DNA of 64,000 nt, from positions 62,001 to 126,000 of the forward strand of contig NZ_QEXL01000010.1 of assembly GCF_003311635.1 (NCBI RefSeq). Direction: 5' to 3'. This stretch comes from Novacetimonas cocois (GTDB lineage Bacteria; Pseudomonadota; Alphaproteobacteria; Acetobacterales; Acetobacteraceae). The translations under genes and the position numbers were made by a program. The notes below the pieces were generated by a model. That model saw only the letters and a list, made by a program, of their open reading frames with translations. It was not told the origin of the DNA and did no database searches. Positions within the stretch are counted from its first letter, which is position 1, and the number at the start of each line of letters is the position of its first letter. This document shows, piece after piece, positions 6,910 through 56,508 of this stretch.

Positions 6910-7029
6910 GGCGCACAGGGATATGCCCGCGCCCGCCCGCAGGCAACCGGCCATATGCACCTGCCGCCATGTTTATGACCGCACGATCGCGATAGCAGGA
7001 CGGGACCGGCGGGTTCATCCCGTGACCGT

Positions 7030-7111
7030 AAAGAAGTTTTTGGTAAAGCTTTTTGCAAAAAGCTTTGAAAGACGTCGCCTTTTTAAAAAAAGGCGACACC
7101 CAGAAACTTTT
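7030..7111 (-). repeat. Two-hairpin intergenic repeat, family 1, copy A
   Basis: Read on the minus strand: outer arm, hairpin H2 (GTCGCC/GGCGAC), hairpin H1 (AAGCTTTTTGCAAAAAGCTT, imperfect here), outer arm. It lies 87 bp beyond the 3' end of the AhpD-like gene with its H2 side facing that gene. Strand here and in the other copies means the orientation in which H2 comes first. Confidence 0.95.
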
Positions 7112-7139
7112 GTTTGTTGTTTTCAAACGGTTCCCCGGC

Positions 7140-7172
7140 AGGACACCGCCTTCATGAAAAAAGGCGGTGTCC
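7140..7172. repeat. Strong inverted repeat beside copy A
   Basis: A 13-bp perfect stem, AGGACACCGCCTT / AAGGCGGTGTCCT, with a 7-base loop, between repeat copy A and the stop codon of the AhpD-like gene 26 bp away. It could form the 3' end of that transcript, though no T-run follows on either strand. Confidence 0.65.
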
Positions 7173-7197
7173 TGAAACGGTTTTCAGGGCGAGGGGA

Positions 7198-11401: not shown

Positions 11402-11490
11402 TTCAGCGTATCATACCTGTGATCGATATGCGATGGCGTCGCGCCCACCCGCATCGCGTCACAGTCGCCCATGAAACATCCATTATATTG

Positions 11491-11574
11491 TAAAGAAGTT
11501 TTTGGTGAAGCTTTTTGCAAAAAGCTTCGAAAGACGTCACCTTTTTGAAAAAAGGCGACACCCAAAAACTTTTA
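11491..11574 (-). repeat. Two-hairpin intergenic repeat, family 1, copy B
   Basis: A near-consensus copy: H1 perfect (GAAGCTTTTTGCAAAAAGCTTC) and H2 GTCACC/GGCGAC with one mismatch. It lies 33 bp beyond the 3' end of the next gene (stop near 11607, minus strand), H2 side facing that gene. Confidence 0.95.
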
Positions 11575-11606
11575 TTCATATCAGAAGGTTATTCCGCTCC
11601 CCCCGC

Positions 11607-30612: not shown

Positions 30613-30660
30613 CGGCCGCGCCCGGCTGGGAAGGGCTATTTCAAAACAACCTGTTGATGA

Positions 30661-30740
30661 TAAAAGTTTTTGGGTGTCGCCTTTTTTCAAAAAGGCGACG
30701 TCTTTCAAAGCTTTTTGAAAAAAGCTTTACCAAAAACTTT
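30661..30740 (+). repeat. Two-hairpin intergenic repeat, family 1, copy C
   Basis: A near-consensus copy: outer arm AAAAGTTTTTGGGTG, H2 GTCGCC/GGCGAC fully paired, H1 AAGCTTTTTGAAAAAAGCTT, outer arm ACCAAAAACTTT. It starts 49 bp after the stop of the last bcs operon gene, H2 side toward that gene. CATGATTTCAGGGT follows, as in copy D. Confidence 0.95.
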
Positions 30741-30835
30741 CATGATTTCAGGGTTTTGTGGACAGGGCTGGCGACAGGATTTGCCATGCCCCCGATGCAG
30801 GCGACATACTGTCCCCTTCGCCGGAGAGTGCCTGC

Positions 30836-33324: not shown

Positions 33325-33455
33325 GCGGGGCCGGATTGTCCCGTTCAGGATAATCCCTGTCCGGCGCAACATGAAATCAATGTACGGTGTCGGTCATCCG
33401 CTGCCAGTCATGCTGCGGATGACCGGCCCCAGATACCGGCCTCAGATAAAAACGA

Positions 33456-33536
33456 CAAAAGTTTCCGGGGGTTGCCTTTTTTCAGAAAGGCGACGTTCTT
33501 CGAAGTTTTTTTGAAAAAACTTCACCAAAAACTTTT
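33456..33536 (+). repeat. Two-hairpin intergenic repeat, family 1, copy D
   Basis: H2 is diverged (GTTGCC...GGCGAC) and H1 is altered (GAAGTTTTTTTGAAAAAACTTC) but still fully paired, apparently by compensating changes. It lies between convergent gene ends at 33324 and 33634. ATGATTTCAGGGTATTG follows, a conserved flank. Confidence 0.9.
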
Positions 33537-33633
33537 ATGATTTCAGGGTATTGTCAGGCCGATCTTTTCAGGCGGTCTCCGGGCAGTTTTCCAAAAAACT
33601 TTTGTGATGACACGATGCTTTGTCACCGTGCCG

Positions 33634-38765: not shown

Positions 38766-39856
38766 GCTTACGCCTTGAACATCTGACGCGCCGCGTCGCG
38801 CGGCATGGCCGCCCGATTGTCGATGACGTCTCGCTGGAGGTCGCGGACGGCAGCTTTACCGCGCTGCTGGGGCCGTCGGGCGCGGGCAAGACGTCGCTGC
38901 TGCGGATCATCGCCGGGCTGGACGCGCATTGCGACGGGCGCGTGTTCATCAATGCGCAGCGCGTGGACATGATGGAGGCACGGTCGCGCAACATCGGTTT
39001 CGTGTTCCAGAATTACGCCCTGTTCGATCATATGACGGTCGCGCGCAACATCGGATTCGGCCTGTCGATCCGTCCCCGCGCCCTGCGGCCCGATCGCGCG
39101 GGCATCGCCGCGCGGGTGGAGGAACTGCTGGAACTGATGCACCTGCCGGGCATGGGGGGACGGTATCCGCACGAACTGTCGGGCGGACAGCGGCAGCGCG
39201 TGGCGCTGGCCCGCGCGCTGGCGACGGGGCCGCGCGTGCTGCTGCTGGATGAACCGTTCGGCGCGCTGGACCCGCTGGTGCGGCGGCGGATCCGCGGCTG
39301 GCTGCGTGATCTGCATGACCGTCTGGGCCTGACCACCATCCTTGTCACCCACGACCGGCACGAGGCGTGCGAGCTGGCGGATGCCATCGCCCTGATGCGC
39401 GACGGGCGGATCGTGCAGGCCGGCAGCCCGCAACAGCTGCTCGACACGCCCGCGACCCCCTTTGCCATGGAGTTCATGGGCGAGGTCACGCGCCTTGCCG
39501 GGCGGGTTGTGGGGGGACGCTTCATCGCGGACCTGCCCGATGTGCGGCCCGTCATGGCGGGCGGGCCGGATGGCGTGGCGGAACTGCTGGTGCGGGCGGG
39601 GGACGTGCGCCTGCTGCCGGGGCAGGGGGCTGCGACGGCGTGGCTGCGTCAGGCGCATGGACCGATCGGTACGTTCGATGTCATGAGCGGACCGGACACC
39701 ATCCGCCTCGATGCGGTGATCCCGCCGGGCGACGGGCGCATTGTCGTCAACTGCGCGCTGGACGTGTCCGCCGGGCGGGTGGCGCGGGACGGGCAATGGC
39801 TGGGGGCGACGGATGTTCCCGCGCCATCGGGCAGTGCCTGCGTCGCGCGGGCCTGA
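38762..39856 (+). CDS. cysA: Sulfate ABC transporter ATP-binding protein CysA
   Basis: A 364-residue ATPase that powers sulfate import. Walker A is GPSGAGKT (residues 37-44), the Q-loop FVFQNYALFDHMTV, the signature LSGGQRQRVALARAL (about 138-152), Walker B VLLLDEPFGALDP, and the switch His VTHDRHEA. The C-terminal 120 residues form a TOBE-like regulatory domain. It is the last gene of the operon, and a family 1 repeat begins 19 bp after its stop. Its length and gene order match CysA. Confidence 0.94.
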   Translation: MSLRLEHLTRRVARHGRPIVDDVSLEVADGSFTALLGPSGAGKTSLLRIIAGLDAHCDGRVFINAQRVDMMEARSRNIGFVFQNYALFDHMTVARNIGFGLSIRPRALRPDRAGIAARVEELLELMHLPGMGGRYPHELSGGQRQRVALARALATGPRVLLLDEPFGALDPLVRRRIRGWLRDLHDRLGLTTILVTHDRHEACELADAIALMRDGRIVQAGSPQQLLDTPATPFAMEFMGEVTRLAGRVVGGRFIADLPDVRPVMAGGPDGVAELLVRAGDVRLLPGQGAATAWLRQAHGPIGTFDVMSGPDTIRLDAVIPPGDGRIVVNCALDVSAGRVARDGQWLGATDVPAPSGSACVARA

Positions 39857-39874
39857 GCCTGGTGGAAAAGGGGG

Positions 39875-39959
39875 GGATGGTTTCCGGGTGTTGCCGTTTT
39901 TTGGAAATGTGATGTTCTTCTGAAGCTTTTTGAAAAAAGCTTCACCAAAAACTTCTTTT
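39875..39959 (+). repeat. Two-hairpin intergenic repeat, family 1, copy E
   Basis: H1 is intact (GAAGCTTTTTGAAAAAAGCTTC) while H2 is decayed (TTGCCGTTTTTTGGAAATGTGA). It begins 19 bp after the cysA stop, H2 side toward cysA, between convergent genes. Confidence 0.85.
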
Positions 39960-40178
39960 GTGATGATGCGGGGTTTTTGGGGGTGGTGTCCGGAACGTCC
40001 CGACGATGGAGGGCATAAAAAACGCATGCCACGGGGGGGGACCATGACATGCGTGAAGTAATTTCTGCGCCCCGGTTGGCCGGACCCGGCCCTGCTGTCC
40101 CGCACCGTGGGGGATGGCGGGGACACGGGCAACAGGGGGGACGGAATTGACGATCCGTCTCCTCCGGTCGCAGGGGGG
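39960..40178. other. Intergenic remainder, cysA / csbD-like
   Basis: With copy E this forms a 322-bp convergent gap. A short inverted repeat GACGGA/TCCGTC around 40139-40160 may help terminate the csbD-like gene. No gene is visible. Confidence 0.35.
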
Positions 40179-40358: not shown

Positions 40359-40620
40359 GATTGCGATTCCTGATTCCATTATGTTCGGACCGGGCCTGCC
40401 CGTGCCAGCGCGTTCGCGCCGATACGTCGGTCAGTATGTCCGATGACCGGACCGGATCGGTCGGCCATATGGTTCAAACGTCGTGCCCGATGCGGGGTTG
40501 CATGTGGACCGACAAAAAATAATCCGAATTTACTGTCCGTTTCCATGTATTTCATGAATCTTTATTCATGATTTATTTACACATATCTGCGATACTGAAC
40601 CCGACAGTATCCCGGAATCA

Positions 40621-40690
40621 TAAAAGGTTCTGGTGAAGATTTTTGCAAAAGCTTCGAAAGACATGACATCTTTCAAAAAAGAAACATCTG
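40621..40690 (-). repeat. Two-hairpin intergenic repeat, family 1, copy F (degenerate)
   Basis: The outer arm AAAAGGTTCTGGTG and H1 (GAAGATTTTTGCAAAAGCTTC) are recognisable; H2 and the distal arm have decayed to an AT-rich remnant. Confidence 0.7.
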
Positions 40691-42700: not shown

Positions 42701-42865
42701 GCCCGTCCCGATCAGGTCACAATCACTGGGTTCGGGTGCCCAACGCATAACGCAACAGCGGGTTCGACGGGCATGCGGACAGGATGGCACAGAAGGAAAC
42801 GTTCCCGTTATGGACGGAAGGTTTCGAAAAACCGGTTTCCCTGTTCCGGGGGCGGGTGAAAACGG

Positions 42866-42936
42866 AAAAGCAGTTTCTGGTGATGCTTTGCGAAGACGCC
42901 GCTTTTTTGAAAAAAGGCGGCACCCGAAAACCTTTA
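42866..42936 (-). repeat. Two-hairpin intergenic repeat, family 1, copy G
   Basis: H2 is GCCGC/GCGGC (compensated relative to GTCGCC/GGCGAC); H1 is reduced. Copies G and H lie head to tail in the same 437-bp gap (42701-43137), which has no gene. Confidence 0.85.
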
Positions 42937-43020
42937 CCGGCTTTTCGTCACGACATGACTGCCGGGCTGTATCCTTGGAAATCGTCTGGGGATACAGATC
43001 CGGCAATATCCTGAAAATTG

Positions 43021-43100
43021 TAAAGGTTTCTGGTGAAGCTTTTTGCAAAAAGCTTCGTAAAACATTGCCTTTCGTGAAAAAGCGACACGTGGAAGCTCGT
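43021..43100 (-). repeat. Two-hairpin intergenic repeat, family 1, copy H
   Basis: H1 is intact (GAAGCTTTTTGCAAAAAGCTTC) and H2 partly decayed (TTGCCTTTCGTGAAAAAGCGAC). It ends 38 bp from the stop of the convergent-facing dehydrogenase gene, H2 side toward it. GGCTGTTTTCAGACAGCC follows, a short palindrome. Confidence 0.9.
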
Positions 43101-43137
43101 ATCGCTTTTCATCAGCGGGCTGTTTTCAGACAGCCTC

Positions 43138-45019: not shown

Positions 45020-45081
45020 CGGCGGCGCGGCGATTCAGGGATTGTCTGGAAAAGGTGGTCCCGGTCATTCCTTGAAATGAT

Positions 45082-45161
45082 GAAGGTTTTGGGTGTCGCC
45101 TTTTTTCTGGAAAGGCGGCGTTCTTTGAAGCTTTTTGCAAAAAGCTTCACCAAAAACTTTT
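45082..45161 (+). repeat. Two-hairpin intergenic repeat, family 1, copy I
   Basis: H1 is perfect and H2 is GTCGCC/GGCGGC with a single T-G wobble, an intermediate between the T-A and C-G forms. It lies between convergent gene ends 45019 and 45197. Confidence 0.95.
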
Positions 45162-45196
45162 ATTTCTGTTGTCGGCAGTCTCTCTCTGTGGGTGTT

Positions 45197-46114
45197 TCAG
45201 CCCGCGTGGGGGCGCTTCTTTTCCAGATTCGTCCCGCCGCCCCGCGCGGTGATGATCCGCACCGCGCCGTTGGTGATCGCGGCGGCGGCGACGATTCCCG
45301 TCACGCTCGACCCCGCATCCAGGCCCAGGCGGTGGCCTTCGGGGCGCAGGTCCCCGATTTCCTTGCAGACATGGTCCGGCCCCACGGGAATCCGGTGTTC
45401 GAACGTATGGCCGTGCACCACGAACCAGTTGCCGGGCCACGGGGTGGGGGCATCGTAAAACGCCTCGCGGACCCACAGGGGATTGTCCTCGTCATCGAGG
45501 AGGAGCGGGTTATAGGCCCGCGCCCACGCGACCGGGTCGGGCACGGTGGGGTCGATGCCGGCATGCATCACCAGAAGCGAGCCGATGGCGCGGAAGACGG
45601 CGATGGGCGGACGCCCGTCCGCGCCGGGCCGCCATCGGGAAATGCCATAATCGATCAGCGAACGCGCCTCCTCCGCGCCGAGGCCGGTGCTGACCGCCGC
45701 ACGGATCAGTGCGCCGCGCCGGTCGTCGGGCGTGCTGATCCACGGTGTCAGCCAGCCGCCACCATTGCGGAAGAAGATTTTGGGATAATCGCGGTTGAAC
45801 ATCGGCGCGAACAGCATCTGTTCATGATTGCCCGGCAGGGCGAAGAACGCGATGTCCGTCCCCGGCAGCCGTCCGCGCCGCGCGTATTCCAGCGTATCGA
45901 CAAGGCAGCCGATGCTGTCCGGTCCCCGGTCGATCACATCGCCGAGCGAGGTGCAGGTCGCGGTGGGAAAATGTTCGGCGCAGAACCGCAGCAGCGCCGT
46001 CAGGTGCGCGCGTTCGCCATGCACGTCGCCGATGACGAATTCCACATGCCCGTCCGGCAGCGACACGGGGGCGGGGATTGGCGCGCTGGTGTGGAGTGTG
46101 ATGGGCTGTGGCAT
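45197..46114 (-). CDS. Metallophosphoesterase (serine/threonine phosphatase-like)
   Basis: A 305-residue calcineurin-type phosphatase. The metal motifs are in order: FVIGDVHGERAHL, SLGDVIDRGPDS, LPGNHEQM, and a late VVHGHTFEHR with LDAGSS. The pattern is that of bacterial PrpA/ApaH-like bis(5'-nucleosyl) or protein phosphatases. Several ATGs lie close together; 46114 (MPQPITLH) is taken, with 46126 and 46135 as alternatives and none with a strong ribosome site. The gene is monocistronic. Confidence 0.9.
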   Translation of the reverse strand: MPQPITLHTSAPIPAPVSLPDGHVEFVIGDVHGERAHLTALLRFCAEHFPTATCTSLGDVIDRGPDSIGCLVDTLEYARRGRLPGTDIAFFALPGNHEQMLFAPMFNRDYPKIFFRNGGGWLTPWISTPDDRRGALIRAAVSTGLGAEEARSLIDYGISRWRPGADGRPPIAVFRAIGSLLVMHAGIDPTVPDPVAWARAYNPLLLDDEDNPLWVREAFYDAPTPWPGNWFVVHGHTFEHRIPVGPDHVCKEIGDLRPEGHRLGLDAGSSVTGIVAAAAITNGAVRIITARGGGTNLEKKRPHAG

Positions 46115-46448
46115 CGGTGCTGGCATTCCCGGCATGGTTTGGACGCGTCGGCGTCGTGACACGCCGCCCGGTCCCGTCCGGGTGTCCTGGCCGCATGTCA
46201 CGGTCATGATACGCAATCATAACCGATTCCGCCGCCCGGTTGCACCCGCCGCTGTCATGTAATCACGAAATGTCCCATGATCGTCAAGGAAGTTTCCGGC
46301 AGAAGCCTCCCTGCCAGAAAGCATCGGGAAGCCTGCATCATGTCCGGACATGCCCCCTGTGCCGGACGCGCGGTGCCTGATGCGCGGCCCCGTCCTGTCC
46401 CGAACGGTACACACCGGATCGGCCGCCGTCATCGCGTGGCCTGTCACG

Positions 46449-46482
46449 AAAAAAGGCGGCAGGAATGGTCCCGCCGCCTTTT
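46449..46482 (-). terminator. Intrinsic terminator of the DUF3309 gene
   Basis: A perfect 10-bp stem, AAAAGGCGGC / GCCGCCTTTT (46451-46482), followed on the minus strand by an unbroken run of T residues. It lies 26 bp beyond the stop at 46509. Confidence 0.88.
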
Positions 46483-46508
46483 GCCTGTCCGCGCCGTGGC
46501 GGCGGGCG

Positions 46509-46661
46509 TCATATTCGCCCCATGATCATCAGCACCACCAGCACCAGCACGACAAGGCCCAGCGCGCCCGAGGGGTAATATCCCCATCCCGAACTGTATG
46601 GCCATGTCGGCAGGGCCCCGATCAGCAGGATGACGATGACGACAAGAAGGATGTTGTTCAT
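46509..46661 (-). CDS. DUF3309 small membrane protein
   Basis: A 50-residue membrane protein: MNNILLVVIVILLIGALPTW, PYSSGWGYYPSG, then LGLVVLVLVVLMIMGRI. This is the exact DUF3309 pattern (two helices around a Trp-Pro-Tyr/Gly-rich turn), widespread in alpha- and betaproteobacteria and of unknown function. The start at 46661 is the family start. A good terminator follows. Confidence 0.93.
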   Translation of the reverse strand: MNNILLVVIVILLIGALPTWPYSSGWGYYPSGALGLVVLVLVVLMIMGRI

Positions 46662-46874
46662 TGTTCGGACCTTCGGGATGGGGGCGTCGCCGCATCGGCA
46701 TGCGTGGCGACCTCGTCCCGCGATAACCCCACAGGAACGGCGAAGTTCCCGGTCCCGTGCCAAAGGATTCACGTCATGGCGGCGGTATTGCCAACCGTCC
46801 GGTACGCGCACGGTCGTGCGGGAACTTTGCCGCGCATGGCGGGTTGTCCCGGCACAGTGGTAAGGACAACGCCC

Positions 46875-47132
46875 ATGCGCCCTGCATCATCCATCGATTT
46901 TCTTGCGAACCGTCCCGGTCCCGGCCTTGGCATCCCGCCGGAGGCCCCGCCCGACCCGCATCCCGAAGACCAGGATCCTGCCCTTCCGCCAGGTGGGGAG
47001 GACGACGACCTGCCCGAGCCCCTGCAGCTGCCGGAACATACGGACGTGGATACGTGGGATAACGAAGGCGGCGAGGACGAAGACGTGGACGGCGACGAGG
47101 ACATCGCGGATCCCGACGACCCGGATGCCTGA
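46875..47132 (+). CDS. Small acidic hypothetical protein
   Basis: An 85-residue protein with Pro-rich first half (GIPPEAPPDPHPEDQDPALP) and an extremely acidic end (EGGEDEDVDGDEDIADPDD). It looks intrinsically disordered. AAGGA eight bases before 46875 supports the start. A palindrome GGCTGCCT/AGGCAGCC (47159-47178) and then repeat copy J follow the stop. Unknown function. Confidence 0.62.
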   Translation: MRPASSIDFLANRPGPGLGIPPEAPPDPHPEDQDPALPPGGEDDDLPEPLQLPEHTDVDTWDNEGGEDEDVDGDEDIADPDDPDA

Positions 47133-47158
47133 CGCCCGCCATGCCACGTCATCCAGAA

Positions 47159-47178
47159 GGCTGCCTTTTCAGGCAGCC
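47159..47178 (+). terminator. Hairpin after the acidic protein gene
   Basis: A perfect 8-bp stem, GGCTGCCT/AGGCAGCC, with a TTTC loop, 26 bp after the stop at 47132. There is no T-run, so it is only a possible terminator. Confidence 0.4.
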
Positions 47179-47199
47179 CAGATAATACATTGAAATCAT

Positions 47200-47282
47200 A
47201 AAAGTTTTTGGTGAAGCTTTTTGCAAAAAGCTTCGAAAGATGTCGCCCTGTCCAGACAGAAGGCGACACCCGGAAACTTTTA
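47200..47282 (-). repeat. Two-hairpin intergenic repeat, family 1, copy J
   Basis: H1 is perfect; H2 keeps GTCGCC/GGCGAC but its loop is replaced by CTGTCCAGACAG, itself a palindrome. The outer arms pair with two G-T wobbles. It lies between convergent gene ends 47132 and 47384. Confidence 0.95.
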
Positions 47283-47329
47283 CTGCGTTCTGTCAGCGAC
47301 TTCTTTCCAGACAGATCCAGAAAAGTTTC

Positions 47330-47367
47330 TGGTGAAACCCTTTCCCCGGAAAGCTTCAGGGAATCCT
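47330..47367 (-). repeat. Family 1 repeat, degenerate copy N
   Basis: Only one outer arm (AAAAGTTTCTGGTG) and a decayed H1 ending AAAGCTTC remain, 17 bp from the lipoprotein stop at 47384. Confidence 0.55.
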
Positions 47368-47383
47368 GCCCCCCGGGCCCTGC

Positions 47384-47851
47384 TCAGGGGGAGCAGTCGG
47401 TTGTGACCAGCCCGTCGGCAAGCGGCATGGAAGTGCAGTGTTCCTGATGTTCGCGCAGTTCAAGGTTCTGCGCCTGCGCATCCGACGCGGCATGGGCATA
47501 GGCCTTGTGCACCGCCTCGTTCAGCTGGTTCCTCGCGTCCTCGCGCGAAATGGTGCCCTGATCCAGCTCCGCCCCCAGCCGTTTCATCGTCCCGGCCAGT
47601 TCGTTGATCGCGTCATAGCTGATCCCCGCATTGGCCCCGGCCTCGTACATGGCGGATGCCTCGCACGTTGCGCGGCGTTCGAAATTGCCCTTGATGGGGG
47701 GGAACTGCTGTTTGCACGCAATGGTCTTGCCACGCATGATCGACAGCTGTTCCTGCACGCGCTGCTGCTGTGTCGGGCCGGAGGAGCACGACGCCAGCGT
47801 GGGAAGCACGCATGCGGAGAGCAGGAGCAGGAAATATTTCCTCATTTTCAT
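47384..47851 (-). CDS. Lipoprotein of unknown function
   Basis: A 155-residue lipoprotein. Signal MKMRKYFLLLLSACVLPTLA with lipobox LASC at about residue 22. The mature domain is mostly helical (QQQRVQEQLSIMRGKTIACK, then MKRLGAELDQGTISREDARN) with four further cysteines (IACK, ATCEA, HCTSM, DCSP) that could form disulfides. No domain recognised. Confidence 0.8.
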   Translation of the reverse strand: MKMRKYFLLLLSACVLPTLASCSSGPTQQQRVQEQLSIMRGKTIACKQQFPPIKGNFERRATCEASAMYEAGANAGISYDAINELAGTMKRLGAELDQGTISREDARNQLNEAVHKAYAHAASDAQAQNLELREHQEHCTSMPLADGLVTTDCSP

Positions 47852-48003
47852 ACAAATCCCGGACGTGAATACCGCCCCGGCCTGTTGCGACGTGATGTAT
47901 CGCGGCGTCGGGGCCTGCGCGAACAGGGGGCGGGGATGCCTGCCGGTCCGGCCCGCCGGGATCCTGTCCGGCAGGGGAACCGGGCCATCCTGCCCCCGAC
48001 GGA

Positions 48004-48624
48004 TCAGTGGCGGAAGTCCGCCGCGCCCGGCAGGTTCGATGCCGGCGTGGTGGTCGTGCCGATCCCGCCCGGATCGTTGATCATGCCACCTGTGGTGGAC
48101 GCGCCCGACGACCCCGCGCCATACGCGCCGCCGCCGTCATACGCACCCGTCCCGGCGCCGGTGCCATTTGTCCCGGTGCCGTATCCCGTGGCGCCATATC
48201 CCGTCGTGCCGTATCCCGTGGTGACGCCGGACCCGTAACCGGGAAAGCCCGTGCCCGTCGTCCGCGCGCCCGTGATGCCCGCGCCTGTCGTGCCCGCGCA
48301 TCCCTTGGCCTCCTGAACACGGTGCAGGGCCTCCATCTTGCCCTTTTCACGCGCCAGCAGTCCCTTGACGTCGCTGCCGGTCATTTCCGACAGCGGCAGC
48401 CCCACCATCAGGACGCCCCACGTGTCGGTCTTGTGCGCGCGGTGCTGCTTGTCCGTCAGGGTCTGCAGTACGTCGCCTTCCTTCAGTTCCGCCTCGCCCA
48501 GCTGCTGGCAGCTGAGGCTGGAATAGGCCGAATCGGGAACATAGGTGGGCTGGACGTCCTTGGGGCTGGCGGCGCATCCCGCCAGCAGCGCCATACCGCC
48601 AAGCAGCGGGACAAGCTTGTTCAT
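48004..48624 (-). CDS. Lipoprotein with Gly/Thr/Tyr repeat tail
   Basis: A 206-residue lipoprotein. Signal MNKLVPLLGGMALLAGC with lipobox LAGC. Residues 25-110 form a charged helical domain (SSLSCQQLGEAELKEGDVLQ, TWGVLMVGLPLSEMTGSDVK) like other small proteins that interact with the envelope. From about residue 110 the tail is low-complexity Gly/Thr/Tyr (TGYGTTGYGATGYGTGTN) with a 15-nt tandem repeat. Unknown function. Confidence 0.8.
   Translation of the reverse strand: MNKLVPLLGGMALLAGCAASPKDVQPTYVPDSAYSSLSCQQLGEAELKEGDVLQTLTDKQHRAHKTDTWGVLMVGLPLSEMTGSDVKGLLAREKGKMEALHRVQEAKGCAGTTGAGITGARTTGTGFPGYGSGVTTGYGTTGYGATGYGTGTNGTGAGTGAYDGGGAYGAGSSGASTTGGMINDPGGIGTTTTPASNLPGAADFRH
48176..48220 (-). 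repeat. Tandem repeat inside the lipoprotein gene
   Basis: Three 15-nt units (consensus GTGCCGTATCCCGTG as written on the plus strand) code for repeated TGYG-type peptides. Unit number could change by slippage. Confidence 0.7.
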
Positions 48625-48722
48625 CGGGTTCTCCGTGCATGATGACGGCGTCTTGTCGCATGTCCGGGGAAACGTGGCTATGTAACTGACTGTAACTTTA
48701 TGTTGCCATAATGTAAGAATCC

Positions 48723-49274
48723 TCAGTCATCGCCAAAGTAGTTTTCACATGTTCCTTTGGTACACTGCGAATTCAGCAGAACTCCGTCCTTGCTCACCAG
48801 CCCGGCGTGGTAGGTATAGGTGTGTTGCATGCCGTCATGATGCACCGACGGCATGCGGATCGTCAGCGTATCGCCCTGCACGCTGGCACGCGGGGTGTCG
48901 GAACAGGTGCCGAAGAAATTGGTGTGGCGTTCCTTTTTCCCGCTGACCTGCATCACGGCATAGGTCGCGGGACACAGGGAACCGCCGATGCTCTGCACCA
49001 GCACGATGTCGCTGTCGCCCATCGGCAGGACCTGCGCCAGCATCAGGCCGCTGTTGCCCGCCAGGGTGGGATGGACGACATGCCCGCGCCATGTGATGCG
49101 GTCGTTGCGGATGGCGACGGTGCCGAAACGCGTCTGGACCTGCCGCGCCTGCTGCGCATGGGCGGTGCCGGTGGCCAGACCCGTCGCGGCCACCAGCCCG
49201 AGGGCCAGCATGCCCCCCGCCAGGGAGCGTGGAAAAATGCGCGACGGGCGCGCCCTGTGCGGAAAATGCGTCAT
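48723..49274 (-). CDS. Secreted protein of unknown function
   Basis: A 183-residue exported protein. The signal is an Arg-rich start then LAGGMLALGLVAATGLATGT with cleavage after AHAQ. The mature domain has strand-like repeats (TRFGTVAIRNDRITWRGHVV, MGDSDIVLVQSIGGSLCPAT) and four Cys (SLCPA, GTCSD, SQCTK, GTCEN). It ends CENYFGDD. No family recognised. Confidence 0.78.
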   Translation of the reverse strand: MTHFPHRARPSRIFPRSLAGGMLALGLVAATGLATGTAHAQQARQVQTRFGTVAIRNDRITWRGHVVHPTLAGNSGLMLAQVLPMGDSDIVLVQSIGGSLCPATYAVMQVSGKKERHTNFFGTCSDTPRASVQGDTLTIRMPSVHHDGMQHTYTYHAGLVSKDGVLLNSQCTKGTCENYFGDD

Positions 49275-49410
49275 CTTGGCGAAAGTCCTGTCCGTGCGGC
49301 ACGCAGGCGTGCCTGCCCTCCCTCATGTCGTTTCGGTCTAGTCCCTTTGGCCGCGCGTGGCGAGGGGGGCGCACCGGTCGCGGCCCCGGCCGGGATACGA
49401 AACGGGGGGA

Positions 49411-49734
49411 TCAGGACGTCATGCGGGTGATGGCCTGGCAGTAATACAGGAAGGCAAGGCGCAGCGCGCGGTCATCCTGCCCCTGCGTGATCTTGCGCAG
49501 GGTTGCGGCGGTGGCGTCGGTGCCCGCCTTCAGCCGGTCGATCTGCGTGATGTCGGGCATGGTGATGTCGGCGACCGTCAGGTCCTGCCCCGGCTTTGCG
49601 GCCGACAGGCGGTAATCGATCAGCGCCTCCGACAGGGCGGTCGGCAGGGCGCGGCCTTCGGCCGGGACCTCGTCATCGGACAGGATGTTGTCCAGCGCCG
49701 CAAGGAAGCGCGTGCGGATTTCGGTTGCGTTCAT
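49411..49734 (-). CDS. Small hypothetical protein
   Basis: A 107-residue cytoplasmic protein starting MNATEIRTRFLAALDNILSD. It looks helical and acidic/polar (ITMPDITQIDRLKAGTDATA, then LRLAFLYYCQAITRMTS). AAAGG eight bases upstream supports 49734; a longer frame to 49842 has no such site. No family recognised. Confidence 0.7.
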   Translation of the reverse strand: MNATEIRTRFLAALDNILSDDEVPAEGRALPTALSEALIDYRLSAAKPGQDLTVADITMPDITQIDRLKAGTDATAATLRKITQGQDDRALRLAFLYYCQAITRMTS

Positions 49735-49900
49735 CAGGAATGCCTTTCTTGGGGCGGGGATGGTCGTCCGCCACGCGGCGCATGCCGCGCGGGCGGTGAC
49801 AGGGCGATACCACGTCCGGCGGCGCGGGGCGAATTTGCGCACCCCGGCCCGTGGGGAAGGGCTGTCGTCGGGGGGCGTTATGTGTGGAAAGTGGGGGGCA

Positions 49901-49942
49901 GGACGCCGCCTTTTTGGAAAAAGGCGGCACCCAAAAACTTTT
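49901..49942 (-). repeat. Two-hairpin intergenic repeat, family 1, copy K (half)
   Basis: Only H2 (GCCGCC/GGCGGC, fully paired) and its outer arm (ACCCAAAAACTTTT) are present, 36 bp from the stop at 49978 and facing it. This copy shows that the H2 half can stand alone. Confidence 0.85.
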
Positions 49943-49977
49943 ATTCTTTTTGTCAGTGGGTTGTTTTGATGTGATTT

Positions 49978-52498: not shown

Positions 52499-54136
52499 TC
52501 AGTCCGGCATGATATGGCACTGCGCCGTGTTGTGGCTGTGGTCGTAATCGACATTGAGGTTGTCGCCATCGCCATGCACCATCCGGCGCGGACGCGCCAG
52601 CAGGGGCGAGAACACGGATTTCGTCGCATCCGCGTCCGCAAGGTGCAGTCCCGCCGCCTCGGTGATGCTGTCGGGCAGGTTCCACGTCATCAGCGGCGCG
52701 TCCAGATGCGTGCGCACGGTGTCGTACTGCGCCGGGTGGCGGGCGATCCACTGCGGTGACAGCCACATCAGGAACGGCACGGCATAGGACTGTTTCAGGT
52801 CGCCATGCTGCGGGTGGCCGGGGGTGCATTCATCCACCCGGACCCCGTGGTCCGCCACGCTGAACAGCATGTTTTCCCCCGGCGCGGCCCGCAGCATGTC
52901 CGTCACCTGCGCCAGGATATGGTCGCCATAGGCGATGCTGTTGTCATATTCCGACCCGAAATGTGCAAAGGACGGGGGATAGCGGTCGCCCACATATTCG
53001 TGGCTGCCAAAGACATGCACGACGATGAAGGTATTGCCCCGCGCCCCCCGTATGGCATCCGCGACGTGGGGGAGGAGGACTTCGTCAAGTTGCGGGCGGC
53101 TCATCATCCCGCCGCTGGCGGTGGTATAGATGATGTGCCGCGCCTGTTCGGAATAGGCCCCGATCACGCTGTCATACGGGCCAAGCCGGGGATGGTTGCT
53201 GATCCACCATGTGTCGTATCCCGCCGCGTTGAACACCGAAATCAGGTCATGTTCCGTGATGCGCGACGTCAGCACCCGGTCATATTGCGACAGGATGACC
53301 GGCACCGCCCCGACCGTATAGTCAAAGGGCGTCACCATGTCGCCAAAGCGCAGCAGTCCGTCCTCGCGCTCCATCTCCGGCGTGTCGGGCACGCCGTAAC
53401 CATACAGGTGCATGTGATCGCGCCGCGCGCTTTCGCCAATCACCAGCACCACGACATGCGGCGGGTCGCTTTCGGGCGGGGCCGCGAAACGCACCGGCTG
53501 GTGGTTCATCCGCCGCGCCATGTCGGTCACGCGCCGTGTCTCGTGCCGCCCGGCCATGTATCCCGTCGCCAGGTTCCAGGGATAGGAATGGTCGTAGTAA
53601 TCCTCCATCCCGTAAAAGGGGTTGTAGTTGACGGCCCTGTGGAAATCCTCGCGGTTGAACTGCATGACCCGCGCGCCCATCGGCAGCGCCAGCAGCAGCG
53701 TGAACCACCGCAGCCAGCCATGGCGTCCCCATCCCCCCGGCAGGACCGGCCCGCGCGGGCGCGACAGATAGACCCCGACCCCGCCAAGGCACACCACCGC
53801 CCACGCCAGCAGCCACGGCGCGAAGGTATGCAGGTAGCCGATGATGACCGGGACGGAGCAGTAGAACAGCACCAGCCACAGCTGCACCCCCGGCAGGTGG
53901 CCGGTCAGGTGGACGTAATACAGCGTCATCGGCAGCAGCAGCAGCGCCGGCAGCATCGCCGCCACCACCAGCCGCCGCCCCAGCAGCGCCATGAGCAGCA
54001 TCTCCATCGCGACGCTGCGCATGATGCCATGCAGCGACAGGACGGAGGGCGAAAGCGCCAGCGTGACAAGGATCCAGAACCCGAAATCCCGATGGCGTGC
54101 GTGCGTGAACCTGCGAAGGATGGAGGCGGCTGTCAT
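52499..54136 (-). CDS. Lipid A phosphoethanolamine transferase-like protein (EptA/sulfatase family)
   Basis: A 545-residue inner-membrane enzyme with four to five N-terminal helices (for example MEMLLMALLGRRLVVAAMLP, LLLLPMTLYYVHLTG) and a periplasmic sulfatase-fold domain. The nucleophile motif is VLVIGESARRDHMHLYGYG, the metal site VADHGVRVDE, and YDTWWISNHPRLGPYDSVIG is typical of EptA/CptA. These enzymes add phosphoethanolamine to lipid A or core sugars. The usual Thr nucleophile of EptA corresponds to Ser in GES here. Start at 54136; ribosome site weak. It is divergent from trhO, with repeat copy L between them. Confidence 0.85.
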   Translation of the reverse strand: MTAASILRRFTHARHRDFGFWILVTLALSPSVLSLHGIMRSVAMEMLLMALLGRRLVVAAMLPALLLLPMTLYYVHLTGHLPGVQLWLVLFYCSVPVIIGYLHTFAPWLLAWAVVCLGGVGVYLSRPRGPVLPGGWGRHGWLRWFTLLLALPMGARVMQFNREDFHRAVNYNPFYGMEDYYDHSYPWNLATGYMAGRHETRRVTDMARRMNHQPVRFAAPPESDPPHVVVLVIGESARRDHMHLYGYGVPDTPEMEREDGLLRFGDMVTPFDYTVGAVPVILSQYDRVLTSRITEHDLISVFNAAGYDTWWISNHPRLGPYDSVIGAYSEQARHIIYTTASGGMMSRPQLDEVLLPHVADAIRGARGNTFIVVHVFGSHEYVGDRYPPSFAHFGSEYDNSIAYGDHILAQVTDMLRAAPGENMLFSVADHGVRVDECTPGHPQHGDLKQSYAVPFLMWLSPQWIARHPAQYDTVRTHLDAPLMTWNLPDSITEAAGLHLADADATKSVFSPLLARPRRMVHGDGDNLNVDYDHSHNTAQCHIMPD

Positions 54137-54511
54137 GGACCCGGCGATGAAGTTTGCCGCAGGACAGCATGTGTCGTCACGGATGCGCAATGGGGACGGG
54201 GGGACTGAAACGTTCCGCAATATCGCCCGCCCGGCGCGATGGTGTCCCGCCGGGGTGTGGCATGCGGGGGTGGGGATGTCATAACAAACTGATATAAAAG
54301 GAATAAAAGTTTTTGGGTGCTGCCTTTTTTCCAAAAAGGCGGCGTCCTTTGAAGCTTTTTGCAAAAAGCTTCACCAAAAACCCTTTTTACATCACGCGCC
54401 ATGTTTTGCGGGTGTCGGGGCGCCTACGCGCATGTCGCCGCTTGGCGATCGTCCCCCGCCCTGATATGGCGGGGGACCGTGCCCCACAGACCGTTCGGAT
54501 GGTTTTGCCCC
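54137..54511. other. Divergent region with repeat copy L
   Basis: A 375-bp gap between two divergent starts, holding copy L at 54304-54387. It is the only divergent gap that carries a family 1 copy. No gene is seen. Confidence 0.5.
54304..54387 (+). repeat. Two-hairpin intergenic repeat, family 1, copy L
   Basis: H1 is perfect and H2 is GCTGCC/GGCGGC with one T-G wobble; outer arms AAAAGTTTTTGGGTG and CACCAAAAACCCTTTTT pair well. Located between divergent genes. Confidence 0.95.
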
Positions 54512-55615: not shown

Positions 55616-56192
55616 ATCCGTCCGCCCCGATGCGCTGGAGGTGGGGGTCATGCTGTCCCCCGTCACGCGCATGGATGCGGACGACCTGATCGCGGGCAAC
55701 CGCGCCAGCCGGGATTTCCACGCCCCGTGGGTCGCCCCGTTTACCGACCGCGACGGGTTCGACGCATGGTTCCAGCAGGTGGTGACCGGGGCGAATGTCG
55801 CGCTGGTGGCCCGCCGCGCCGACGCGCAGGCCGCCGATGGTCCGGGCGATGGCCTAAGCGGGGCGGTGATCGGCGTCCTGACATTGAGCCAGATTACCCA
55901 CGGCACGTTCTGCAGCGCCTATCTGGGATATTACGCCATGCAGCCGCAGGCGGGGCGGGGCCTGATGACGCAGGCGCTGCGCATGACGGTGCGCCATGCC
56001 TTTGACCTGCTGGGCCTGCACCGGCTGGAGGCCAACATCCAGCCCGCCAACCAGCCCTCCATCGCGCTGGTGCGGCGCGTGGGGTTCCGGTGCGAGGGGT
56101 TTTCGCCGCGCTACCTGTTCATCGACGGCGCATGGCGCGACCACGAACGCTGGGCCATCCTGTCGGACGACCCGGCGGGCATGGCGGTCTAG
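55599..56192 (+). CDS. GNAT-family N-acetyltransferase (RimJ-like)
   Basis: A 197-residue acetyltransferase of the RimJ/RimL branch that modifies protein N-termini. Visible motifs are [37 protein letters not shown] (acetyl-CoA loop Q-x-x-G-R-G), [20 protein letters not shown] and [17 protein letters not shown]. The start is a GTG; 55599 is chosen, overlapping the trhO 3' end by 17 bp with AGGGGAG upstream, and a GTG at 55608 is the alternative. Translation is probably coupled to trhO. Confidence 0.85.
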
Positions 56193-56508
56193 GCCGCCGA
56201 CCGATCCGTGTTCGGAAAGACAGCCTCAGGAATACCGTGAAATCATAAAGGTTTTTGGTGAAGCTTTTTGCAAAAAGCTTCGAAAGGACATCGCCTTTTT
56301 AGATAAAGGACGACAGCAGAAAACTGTTGTTATTTTATCGGCAGGATATTTTCAGGCCACCCCTGCAACGCACGCTGCGCACCCGCGTGGCGCGATGGCG
56401 GGACATGGCGACGATATCTTGCAGGATATGGACAGCGGGCTGTGTGGCGGACCATGCCTTGGGGCATCCCCGGCCCACCCCTGAAACGCACGCGATGACG
56501 GGTGGGCG
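56193..56508. other. Convergent gap with repeat copy M
   Basis: A 316-bp gap between convergent stops, holding copy M at 56246-56328. The remaining sequence shows no gene. Confidence 0.45.
56246..56328 (-). repeat. Two-hairpin intergenic repeat, family 1, copy M
   Basis: H1 is perfect (GAAGCTTTTTGCAAAAAGCTTC). H2 is weakened (ATCGCC/GGACGA) and its outer arm decayed. The left flank ATACCGTGAAATCATAAAGG matches other copies. Confidence 0.88.

Follow-up and report, generated by a model that had tools for sequence, protein, structure and literature searches.

The window examined here, a 64-kb stretch of a Novacetimonas cocois contig, holds 13 copies of an interspersed element, 10 of them full. 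The element core of ~80 bp is a three-way junction in which an outer stem P1 (AAAAGTTTTTGG/CCAAAAACTTTT), laid out as A4-G-T5-GG / CC-A5-C-T4, is closed around two hairpins, H1 and H2, both of the form X-TTTTT-NN-AAAAA-X'. This core is AT-rich (GC 0.27-0.49) within a window of 65% GC, and a motif search yielded 11 matches in the window but none in 100 shuffles. Genome-wide, at least 150 copies are present, with at most 150 candidates scored in the model search of the own genome. The copies are lettered A to M by position, which is our own mapping of the letters used in a first-pass annotation of this DNA:

7026..7120, + strand: copy A, full element (R1 94.6 bits)
11489..11581, + strand: copy B, full element (R1 96.7 bits; fold z -3.84 on +, -5.25 on -)
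30656..30749, - strand: copy C, full element (R1 94.9 bits)
33447..33544, - strand: copy D, full element with compensated H1 (R1 92.5 bits)
39867..39961, - strand: copy E, full but decayed (R1 79 bits)
40616..40681, + strand: copy F, 5' part (R1 45.7 bits, model 4-70)
42864..42944, + strand: copy G, H1 largely lost (R1 45.9 bits)
43015..43109, + strand: copy H, full but decayed (R1 80.8 bits)
45075..45166, - strand: copy I, full element (R1 87.4 bits); P1 arms 45082-45092 and 45150-45161, H2 45095-45119, H1 45127-45148
47192..47290, + strand: copy J, full element (R1 89.6 bits; fold z -4.05 on +, -3.85 on -); P1 arms 47200-47211 and 47270-47281, H1 47213-47234, H2 47242-47267, its apical part pairing as CTGT/ACAG
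49899..49951, + strand: copy K, right half only (R1 36.8 bits, model 46-98); H2 49905-49928 and P1 3' arm 49931-49942, without H1 and without the P1 5' arm
54295..54392, - strand: copy L, full element (R1 91.7 bits)
56239..56337, + strand: copy M, full element (R1 88.5 bits)

The element keeps to gene ends. None of the 124 copies from this genome lies inside a called gene, judged by the copy midpoint and with genes called by a purpose-built ORF scorer instead of a standard program. Convergent gene pairs hold 60 of 116 copies against 24% expected from intergenic length (p=6e-11), and divergent pairs hold 7 of the 116. Tandem copies lie mostly nearer the upstream stop codon (41 of 49 in the own genome, 106 of 129 over four groups) and show an orientation bias (49 vs 80, p=0.008). 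Element copies are found just downstream of stop codons, as intrinsic terminators are. The 40 own-genome stretches were picked for holding matches, and their densities and share of convergent ends (94/162) are therefore too high for the genome as a whole. Half of the copies that could be classified at the Rikenellaceae loci (4 of 8) are divergent. In six plasmid records with 12 places between them, the top place per record was compared with an incomplete plasmid gene table: none falls under an annotated CDS; two are convergent, three tandem (two being one locus in two strains) and one unclassifiable. The 3'-end position could also be compatible with a tolerance of insertions there.

Covariation in H2 had been noticed in the first-pass annotation, and the pairs are as described on the plus strand of the window: the second pair is T-A in copies A and C, T-G in I and C-G in G and K, the third is T-G in L, and H1 of copy D (GAAGTTTT/AAAACTTC) is altered on both sides with pairing kept. 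The conclusion drawn at the time, that base pairing is under selection, is supported by covariation in H2 and parts of H1, by compensations at orthologous loci and by the arms of other genera, which differ but pair. Among the 124 own-genome copies we counted 94 double-changed cells against 47.6±12.4 in shuffled data; 500 column shuffles never produced as many double changes or as high a covariation score, and controls with slid partners stayed far below on both. About half of the 94 cells are at H2 pair 2, whose states in an alignment of 276 copies are CG 159, TA 82, CA 15 and TG 7. Of the matches available for this alignment, 119 of 124 from the own genome, 50 of 58 from relatives and 107 of 147 others went in; those shorter than 80 bases, overlapping (antisense) matches and the Rikenellaceae loci were left out.

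Whether a larger alignment contains any statistically supported pair, the point on which the annotation had made its claim depend, has a different answer under the two nulls. Tested pair by pair against a tree null, H2 pair 2 is supported at p=0.0005, the lowest value that 2000 simulations allow, whereas under an all-pairs null, with alignments simulated on the tree, no pair attained E<0.05 and H2 pair 2 was the best of the structure's pairs at E=0.11; the per-pair nulls were added because some all-pairs null alignments gave very high values. Among the 34 pairs, H2 pair 2 alone stays within the Bonferroni limit on both measures (p=0.0005), while for H1 pair 20-37 this holds for the G statistic (0.0010) but not for the Watson-Crick excess (0.0185). 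The G statistic is nominally significant (p<0.05) in eleven of the 34, including a single pair of P1 (12-77, 0.049), and P1 shows no covariation after correction under the per-pair tree null. On a tree built from the very sequences under test, H2 pair 2 requires a minimum of 15 switches between T-A and C-G, few against the shuffled mean of 68, and is thus partly a subfamily marker. Compensation at orthologous loci was observed for H2 pair 2 at one locus (a second being ambiguous), for H2 pair 3 at two loci, and as an AT to GC exchange in H1 at one locus compared with two relatives. Compensatory change maintains the pairing of the element.

Beyond the genus, the skeleton persists while the arms are replaced. 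Family searches covered 150 genomes with R1 (cut-off 1e-8) and 200 genomes with R2 (1e-6) and revealed a patchy distribution over two phyla, with the same core present in gut Rikenellaceae and no element match in phage records. Genome-contig loci, 98 of 110 of which were searched, had been picked by an exact left-half match, which inflates left-half conservation there. All 21 distant matches that were read (from G031, G129, G154, G199, G090 and G208) possess the P1 arms together with two inverted repeats that have the T/A tracts but different arms; the hairpin arms, above all those of H1, have a different sequence in other genera and are still paired. In the 11 copies of one genome (G150), 27 double-changed cells were counted against 12.4±2.2 in shuffled data, including G-C to C-G swaps. 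Of these 21 distant copies, 12 have the three-way junction as their minimum free energy (MFE) structure; in 8 the hairpins instead pair with one another, and in one more P1 is not formed. Both arm length and linker vary among copies. As the arms differ across genera yet pair, the folded shape appears to be preserved by selection. Rfam returned no match at gathering score in the window or in L193, L206, L184 and L098, and whatever it matched at positions 45040-47330 scored far short of the family thresholds. No description of the element family was found in the literature searched, with subscription papers mostly outside it, and six element strings were absent from that literature.

The strand on which this fold acts is less readily deduced. 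G-U intermediates had been put forward as a hallmark of RNA structure, an argument that mixed the strands: the element is oriented and copies C, D, I and L lie on the minus strand, so what reads as T-G in I and L is C·A once the element is put in its own orientation. A caution that the outer-arm wobbles of A, D and J would pair only in the opposite strand was likewise mistaken, given that the P1 variants of A and J are U·G on the window plus strand, and that of D, C·A on this strand, is U·G in element orientation. Across 119 own copies, the plus-strand ratio of G·U to A·C is 152:76 in P1, 33:13 in H1 (without junction pair 17-40) and 31:88 in H2. P1 and H1 thus favour G·U on one strand and H2 on the other, and such intermediates identify no RNA strand. 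This bias did not depend on the direction of the adjacent gene, in a test whose H1 counts took in pair 17-40, for the most part a T-G or T-A pair. The two strands differ in MFE in weak accord with gene direction (one-sided p=0.025), a result that is only suggestive, being one of several such tests. With structure tests against transcription direction negative or weak, action as RNA and action as DNA are both possible.

We consider the chances about even that this interspersed, structure-constrained repeat at gene 3' ends is, or once was, mobile and is a bidirectional gene-end element, probably a branched terminator or mRNA 3'-end structure. Transcription from either side would produce an RNA in which the hairpins might fold first and draw the P1 arms together, and the closed P1 would leave a U-rich tract, CUUUUgUUaUUUUU on the plus and CUUUUAUGAUUU on the minus strand. 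Such a fold would act as a branched intrinsic terminator in both directions or as a stable 3' end for converging mRNAs. Copies B and J have fold z-scores of -3.8 to -5.3 on both strands, and T-rich tracts flank the element on both sides (group means of 6.6-8.2 T in 12). According to PMC6060812, most inverted repeats found at E. coli gene ends belong to intrinsic terminators. The U-tract, on the other hand, is not better on the strand that would need it by gene direction, and a simple-hairpin terminator rule fires on 20 (+) and 39 (-) of 124 copies. Classical terminators at first seemed scarcer at convergent ends that bear the element (10/94 vs 20/68, p=0.004), but the difference vanished with matched masking, under which such terminators occur at 10 of 94 convergent ends against 7.6% expected and at 6 of 44 tandem ends against 5.0%, i.e. 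without depletion.

Two other readings compete with a role at mRNA 3' ends. The element might be a selfish, non-autonomous, MITE-like repeat whose hairpins serve DNA movement and for which gene 3' ends are the only harmless insertion sites, a reading that we regard as unlikely. Empty and filled orthologous sites do coexist, i.e. there is insertion polymorphism (at R1 E<=1e-9, 9 filled and 9 without a match in G001, 3 and 6 in G002, and 1 filled in G003), and copy C is absent from the orthologous site of one relative (L152). At least four of the unmatched sites are also distinctly shorter, with 47-91 bp between flank matches, and one clean insertion carries an 8-bp duplication (CCTCTCAG). The distribution patchy across two phyla and a weak outer flank consensus (GGCTGTCTGAAAA...TTTTCAGACAGCC) point the same way, but the terminal inverted matches of GGCTGTCTGAAAA/TTTTCAGACAGCC do not exceed mismatched controls. 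Whether in own, relative or A. musti copies, flanking direct or inverted repeats are likewise not clearly commoner than in mismatched pairs; for direct repeats of at least 8 bp the shares are 17.3% vs 12.6% in 104 own copies, 7.7 vs 10.4% in 39 relative copies and 2.0 vs 9.3% in 49 A. musti copies. The genome is without a Y1 transposase (no match to PF01797, Y1_Tnp, at E<=0.001, with controls matching in 5 of 14), and no partner element was identified in a systematic search covering Y1_Tnp only. There is also no sign of a recent burst, the best same-genome identity having a median of 92% and a 95th percentile of 95.5%, and conservation is far stronger in the core than at the outer ends, the reverse of the pattern expected of a transposon under constraint at its termini.

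Alternatively, the fold may act as DNA on both strands, as a cruciform or protein-binding site for topological relief or a nucleoid protein at gene ends, which we think quite improbable. Overwound DNA is expected to collect at convergent junctions, and the palindrome centres (T5NNA5), like the core in its GC-rich surroundings, are AT-rich. The symmetry of the half-elements, with G·U favoured on the plus strand by P1 and H1 and on the minus strand by H2, and a wobble bias that ignores gene direction would both fit. Arm length and linker nevertheless vary among copies, leaving no fixed spacing for a DNA-binding array; the weak tracking of gene direction by strand MFE speaks against action as DNA as well, and the orientation bias of tandem copies would be unexpected for a purely topological element.

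A broader proposal, possible although we lean against it, is that these copies represent an undescribed class of branched, bidirectional gene-end elements with a fixed T5/A5 three-way-junction skeleton and replaceable, pairing GC arms, in use at many convergent gene ends in Acetobacteraceae and, by transfer or convergence, present in gut Rikenellaceae too; the Rikenellaceae core raises the question of which of the two applies. Were the element a transcription terminator, a repeat that is or once was mobile would have become a standard gene-end part in industrial acetic-acid and cellulose-making bacteria, and its natural arm variants would offer a ready mutational test of branched termination. 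It supplies candidate bidirectional terminators for engineering and may account for spurious short ORFs near gene ends in these genomes.

In kind, the element is an intergenic structured repeat. REPs are often located at gene ends, and like REP/BIME sequences the element is intergenic, palindromic, present in many copies and outside coding sequence, but its core of ~80 bp is branched, whereas REP/BIME units are single palindromes of 20-40 bp, and the Y1/RAYT transposase is absent from its genome. According to a passage in PMC3733652, CGTC-type REPs are missing in Acetobacteraceae. With MITEs it shares a short, non-coding, inverted-repeat, multi-copy nature and presence or absence among relatives; it differs in that neither target duplications nor terminal repeats stand out clearly across copies, in a core conserved more than the ends, and in compensatory arm replacement. 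Intrinsic terminators resemble it in lying just 3' of stop codons, in being common to convergent genes and in the A-tract/stem/T-tract order on both strands, although its stem is branched, with two hairpins inside P1, and the T5/A5 of its hairpins adjoin the loop, while terminators carry a T-tract after a GC stem. Among such terminators are bidirectional ones and ones made from uptake sequences, the latter a link for which PMC2267715 cites Kingsford et al. 2007.

The core of the repeat element reads AAAAGTTTTTGG-T-GAAGCTTTTTNCAAAAAGCTTC-linker-G(T/C)CGCCTTTTTGAAAAAAGGCG(A/G)C-AC-CCAAAAACTTTT, with an outer stem (P1) enclosing two hairpins, H1 and H2. For each of the two copies tested, either strand folds into this form, with z-scores of -3.84 to -5.25 (0/200 shuffles as good). 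Flanks less conserved than the core (GGCTGTCTGAAAA...TTTTCAGACAGCC) lengthen the element to ~150 bp, and conservation is much higher in the core than at the outer ends. In the consensus of the copies from the source genome (3.40 Mb, 75 contigs; Novacetimonas/Komagataeibacter group), the loop of H1 usually reads NC on the + strand and that of H2 usually TC on the - strand, so that the element resembles two inverted half-units. A recurrent variant in several copies of two relatives carries CGATC in place of the H2 apical loop (TTTTTCGATCAAAA; e.g. G002:C53:31895-31972 and G001:C5:5825-5902). A sequence-only model built from ten window copies matched ten full and three partial copies in the window; its remaining matches there were antisense readings of these 13 or short and weak, as in the two examples that close the list:

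40616, 42864 and 49899: partial copies F, G and K
45082-49942: interval given in the first-pass annotation, bounded by the outer arms of copy I and half-copy K and holding copies I, J and K
7138-7183: short weak match, 15-17 bits
47318-47364: short weak match, 15-17 bits

Genome-wide, this model found at least 150 copies, and counts of an exact-arm pattern, roughly extrapolated, point to ~170. One directly tandem pair (L034:4429-4613) has a second copy without the P1 5' arm and the H1 5' side. Mechanical ORFs through copies (window 38768-40132, 54133-54402 and 55996-56484) yield recurrent peptides, among them a 10-residue sequence, and probably give rise to false short gene predictions.

Selection on the folding of the element is well supported. 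In an alignment of 124 copies of the source genome made with the sequence-only model, 92.3% of cells were paired (91.0 in shuffled alignments), 94 were double-changed (47.6±12.4) and the covariation score was 0.125 (0.104±0.003), none of which was reached in 500 shuffles; controls with slid partners gave at most 35 double-changed cells. Nearly half of the double changes (46/94) came from the second pair of H2, where the first-pass annotation had seen covariation. In a structure-free alignment of 276 copies from several genera this pair was CG in 159, TA in 82, CA in 15 and TG in 7, and tree simulations supported it at p = 0.0005, the floor of 2000 simulations. Ten further pairs lay at p 0.001-0.05, among which H1 20-37 alone passed the Bonferroni limit, on one measure only, and P1 contributed one pair, at 0.049. 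Under a stricter all-pairs null, no pair of the 276-copy alignment reached E<0.05. Double switches were also found between orthologous loci:

L022:8130: H2 pair 2, TA to CG
L003:7955: H2 pair 3, C-G/T-A exchange
L022:14972: H2 pair 3, C-G/T-A exchange
L003:7955: H1, AT to GC against two relatives

The case at window position 43015 can be read in more than one way, since copies G and H of the window face a single copy in the relative. The other differences in the 12 orthologous comparisons were mostly one-sided, creating or breaking a pair.

Pairing also persists where the sequence has diverged. In eleven copies from another Acetobacteraceae genus (G150), P1 and the T/A tracts are retained; the GC segment of H1 is unlike that of the window in all eleven and is paired copy by copy (e.g. 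GTGGACCC/GGGTCCAC, GTGGCCCC/GGGGCCAC, TTGGGGAGC/GCTCCCCAA). Their H2 has the window's GCCGCC/GGCGGC in five copies and other sequences, some imperfectly paired, in the rest. Double-changed cells numbered 27 against 12.4±2.2 shuffled (0/500 reached this), a count using a structure derived from the same alignment, and the eight pairs with a double change were unexceptional (79/500 shuffles). A structured model from these copies matched 22/200 family genomes in 12/102 genera (E<=1e-6), some with only one or two weak matches; the sequence-only model matched 7/150 in 3/102 genera (1e-8), with a different sample and cut-off. All 21 distant matches read, from six genomes, retained the P1 arms together with two inverted repeats that have T/A tracts but different arm sequences, such as GTTC/GAAC with CTCCC/GGGAG or GCTTC/GAAGC with GTTC/GAAC. 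Their minimum free energy fold was the three-way junction in 12, mutual pairing of the two inverted repeats in eight, and left P1 unformed in one.

The repeat looks old, with a constrained core and continuing gain or loss between species. Orthologous sites with alignable flanks had a match to the sequence-only model in nine and lacked it in nine for one relative (G001), three versus six for a second (G002) and had it in one for a third (G003); at least four matchless sites were also clearly shorter, and the others may hold a decayed copy. One clean matchless site showed an 8-bp duplication, and no general target-duplication or inverted-repeat signal stood out across copies. Identity above 95% between copies of one genome was rare. 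Among the matches listed, an exact 33-base pattern occurred in named records of Komagataeibacter, Novacetimonas, Gluconacetobacter entanii, Acetobacter and Gluconobacter; ruminant-gut Tidjanibacter and Alistipes assemblies carried it too. One Tidjanibacter assembly of 1.7 Mb has 51 matches. All five Rikenellaceae places read had the P1 5' arm and H1, and three had H2 as GCGACTTTTTATAAAAAGTCGC and an extra linker hairpin. The arm-plus-H1 sequence recurs as a repeat in assemblies of this family, at these loci:

L044, L066, L097, L098 and L115 (Tidjanibacter): P1 5' arm and H1
L148 (Alistipes): P1 5' arm and H1

L044, L098 and L115 also carry an H2 and the extra linker hairpin GCGAC..GTCGC, with GAGATACTTCGTATCTC-like palindromes close by. 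The contigs bear housekeeping genes such as atpD, the strict pattern occurred in 1/150 Rikenellaceae genomes, and the copies were not clearly at 3' ends (4/8 divergent); either transfer or convergence may explain them.

The genomic context suggests a bidirectional terminator or an mRNA 3'-end structure, given that copies occur at gene ends in both orientations and favour convergent junctions, and that P1 is preceded by A-tracts and followed by T-tracts on either strand. With genes called by a purpose-written caller, 0/124 copies of the source genome lay inside genes, and the 116 with both neighbours were 60 convergent, 49 tandem and seven divergent, where intergenic length predicts 24%, 55% and 21%; a second run with a retrained caller gave 61/116 convergent. 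For the tandem copies the median distance to the upstream stop was 37 bp and that to the following start 239 bp; 41/49 were nearer the stop, as were 106/129 across four groups. Convergent copies made up 14/43 in Novacetimonas relatives, 53/81 in Komagataeibacter and kin and 31/64 in Acetobacter/Gluconobacter, and copies inside a gene 1/56, 0/99 and 0/73, respectively, and 1/11 in G150. The gene of tandem pairs entered from the H2 side in 80 versus 49 cases (p=0.008). On annotated plasmids, none of six places lay under a listed CDS; two were convergent, one lacked neighbours on both sides and three were tandem, two of these being one locus in two strains. A copy lay within 150 bp of 94/162 convergent-facing gene ends and 44/275 tandem ends with a gap of at least 40 bp, upper estimates since the stretches were chosen for matches.

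Does the fold act as RNA? The first-pass annotation had taken compensatory changes with G-U intermediates as the hallmark of selected RNA structure, and every base it quoted is correct on the + strand. Its T-G pairs of copies I and L exist on that strand of the window, but are C·A in element orientation because C, D, I and L are reverse-oriented; its caution that outer-arm wobbles pair only in the opposite strand comes down to strand: in copies A and J the P1 variants are U·G on the + strand. Across 119 copies of the source genome, G·U:A·C on the + strand was 152:76 in P1, 33:13 in H1 and 31:88 in H2, a bias independent of adjacent-gene direction that favours no single RNA strand. Predicted RNA stability differed between strands by 0.25-0.76 kcal/mol toward the adjacent-gene direction (one-sided p=0.025), which is only suggestive. 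The G-U intermediates thus do not establish RNA. Because the tests for action on one particular strand gave negative or weak results, and no depletion of classical terminators was seen beside the element, a role at the DNA level and a selfish element whose presence at gene ends is tolerated are both live alternatives to the termination or 3'-end reading.

The element matched no Rfam family at threshold, and neither its sequence strings nor its description were found in the literature searched. An ordinary terminator-like hairpin is present in the window itself, at 46449-46482 between genes (AAAAAAGGCGGC...GCCGCCTTTT); its GC arm is similar to that of H2, but its T/A tracts lie outside the hairpin and not beside the loop.
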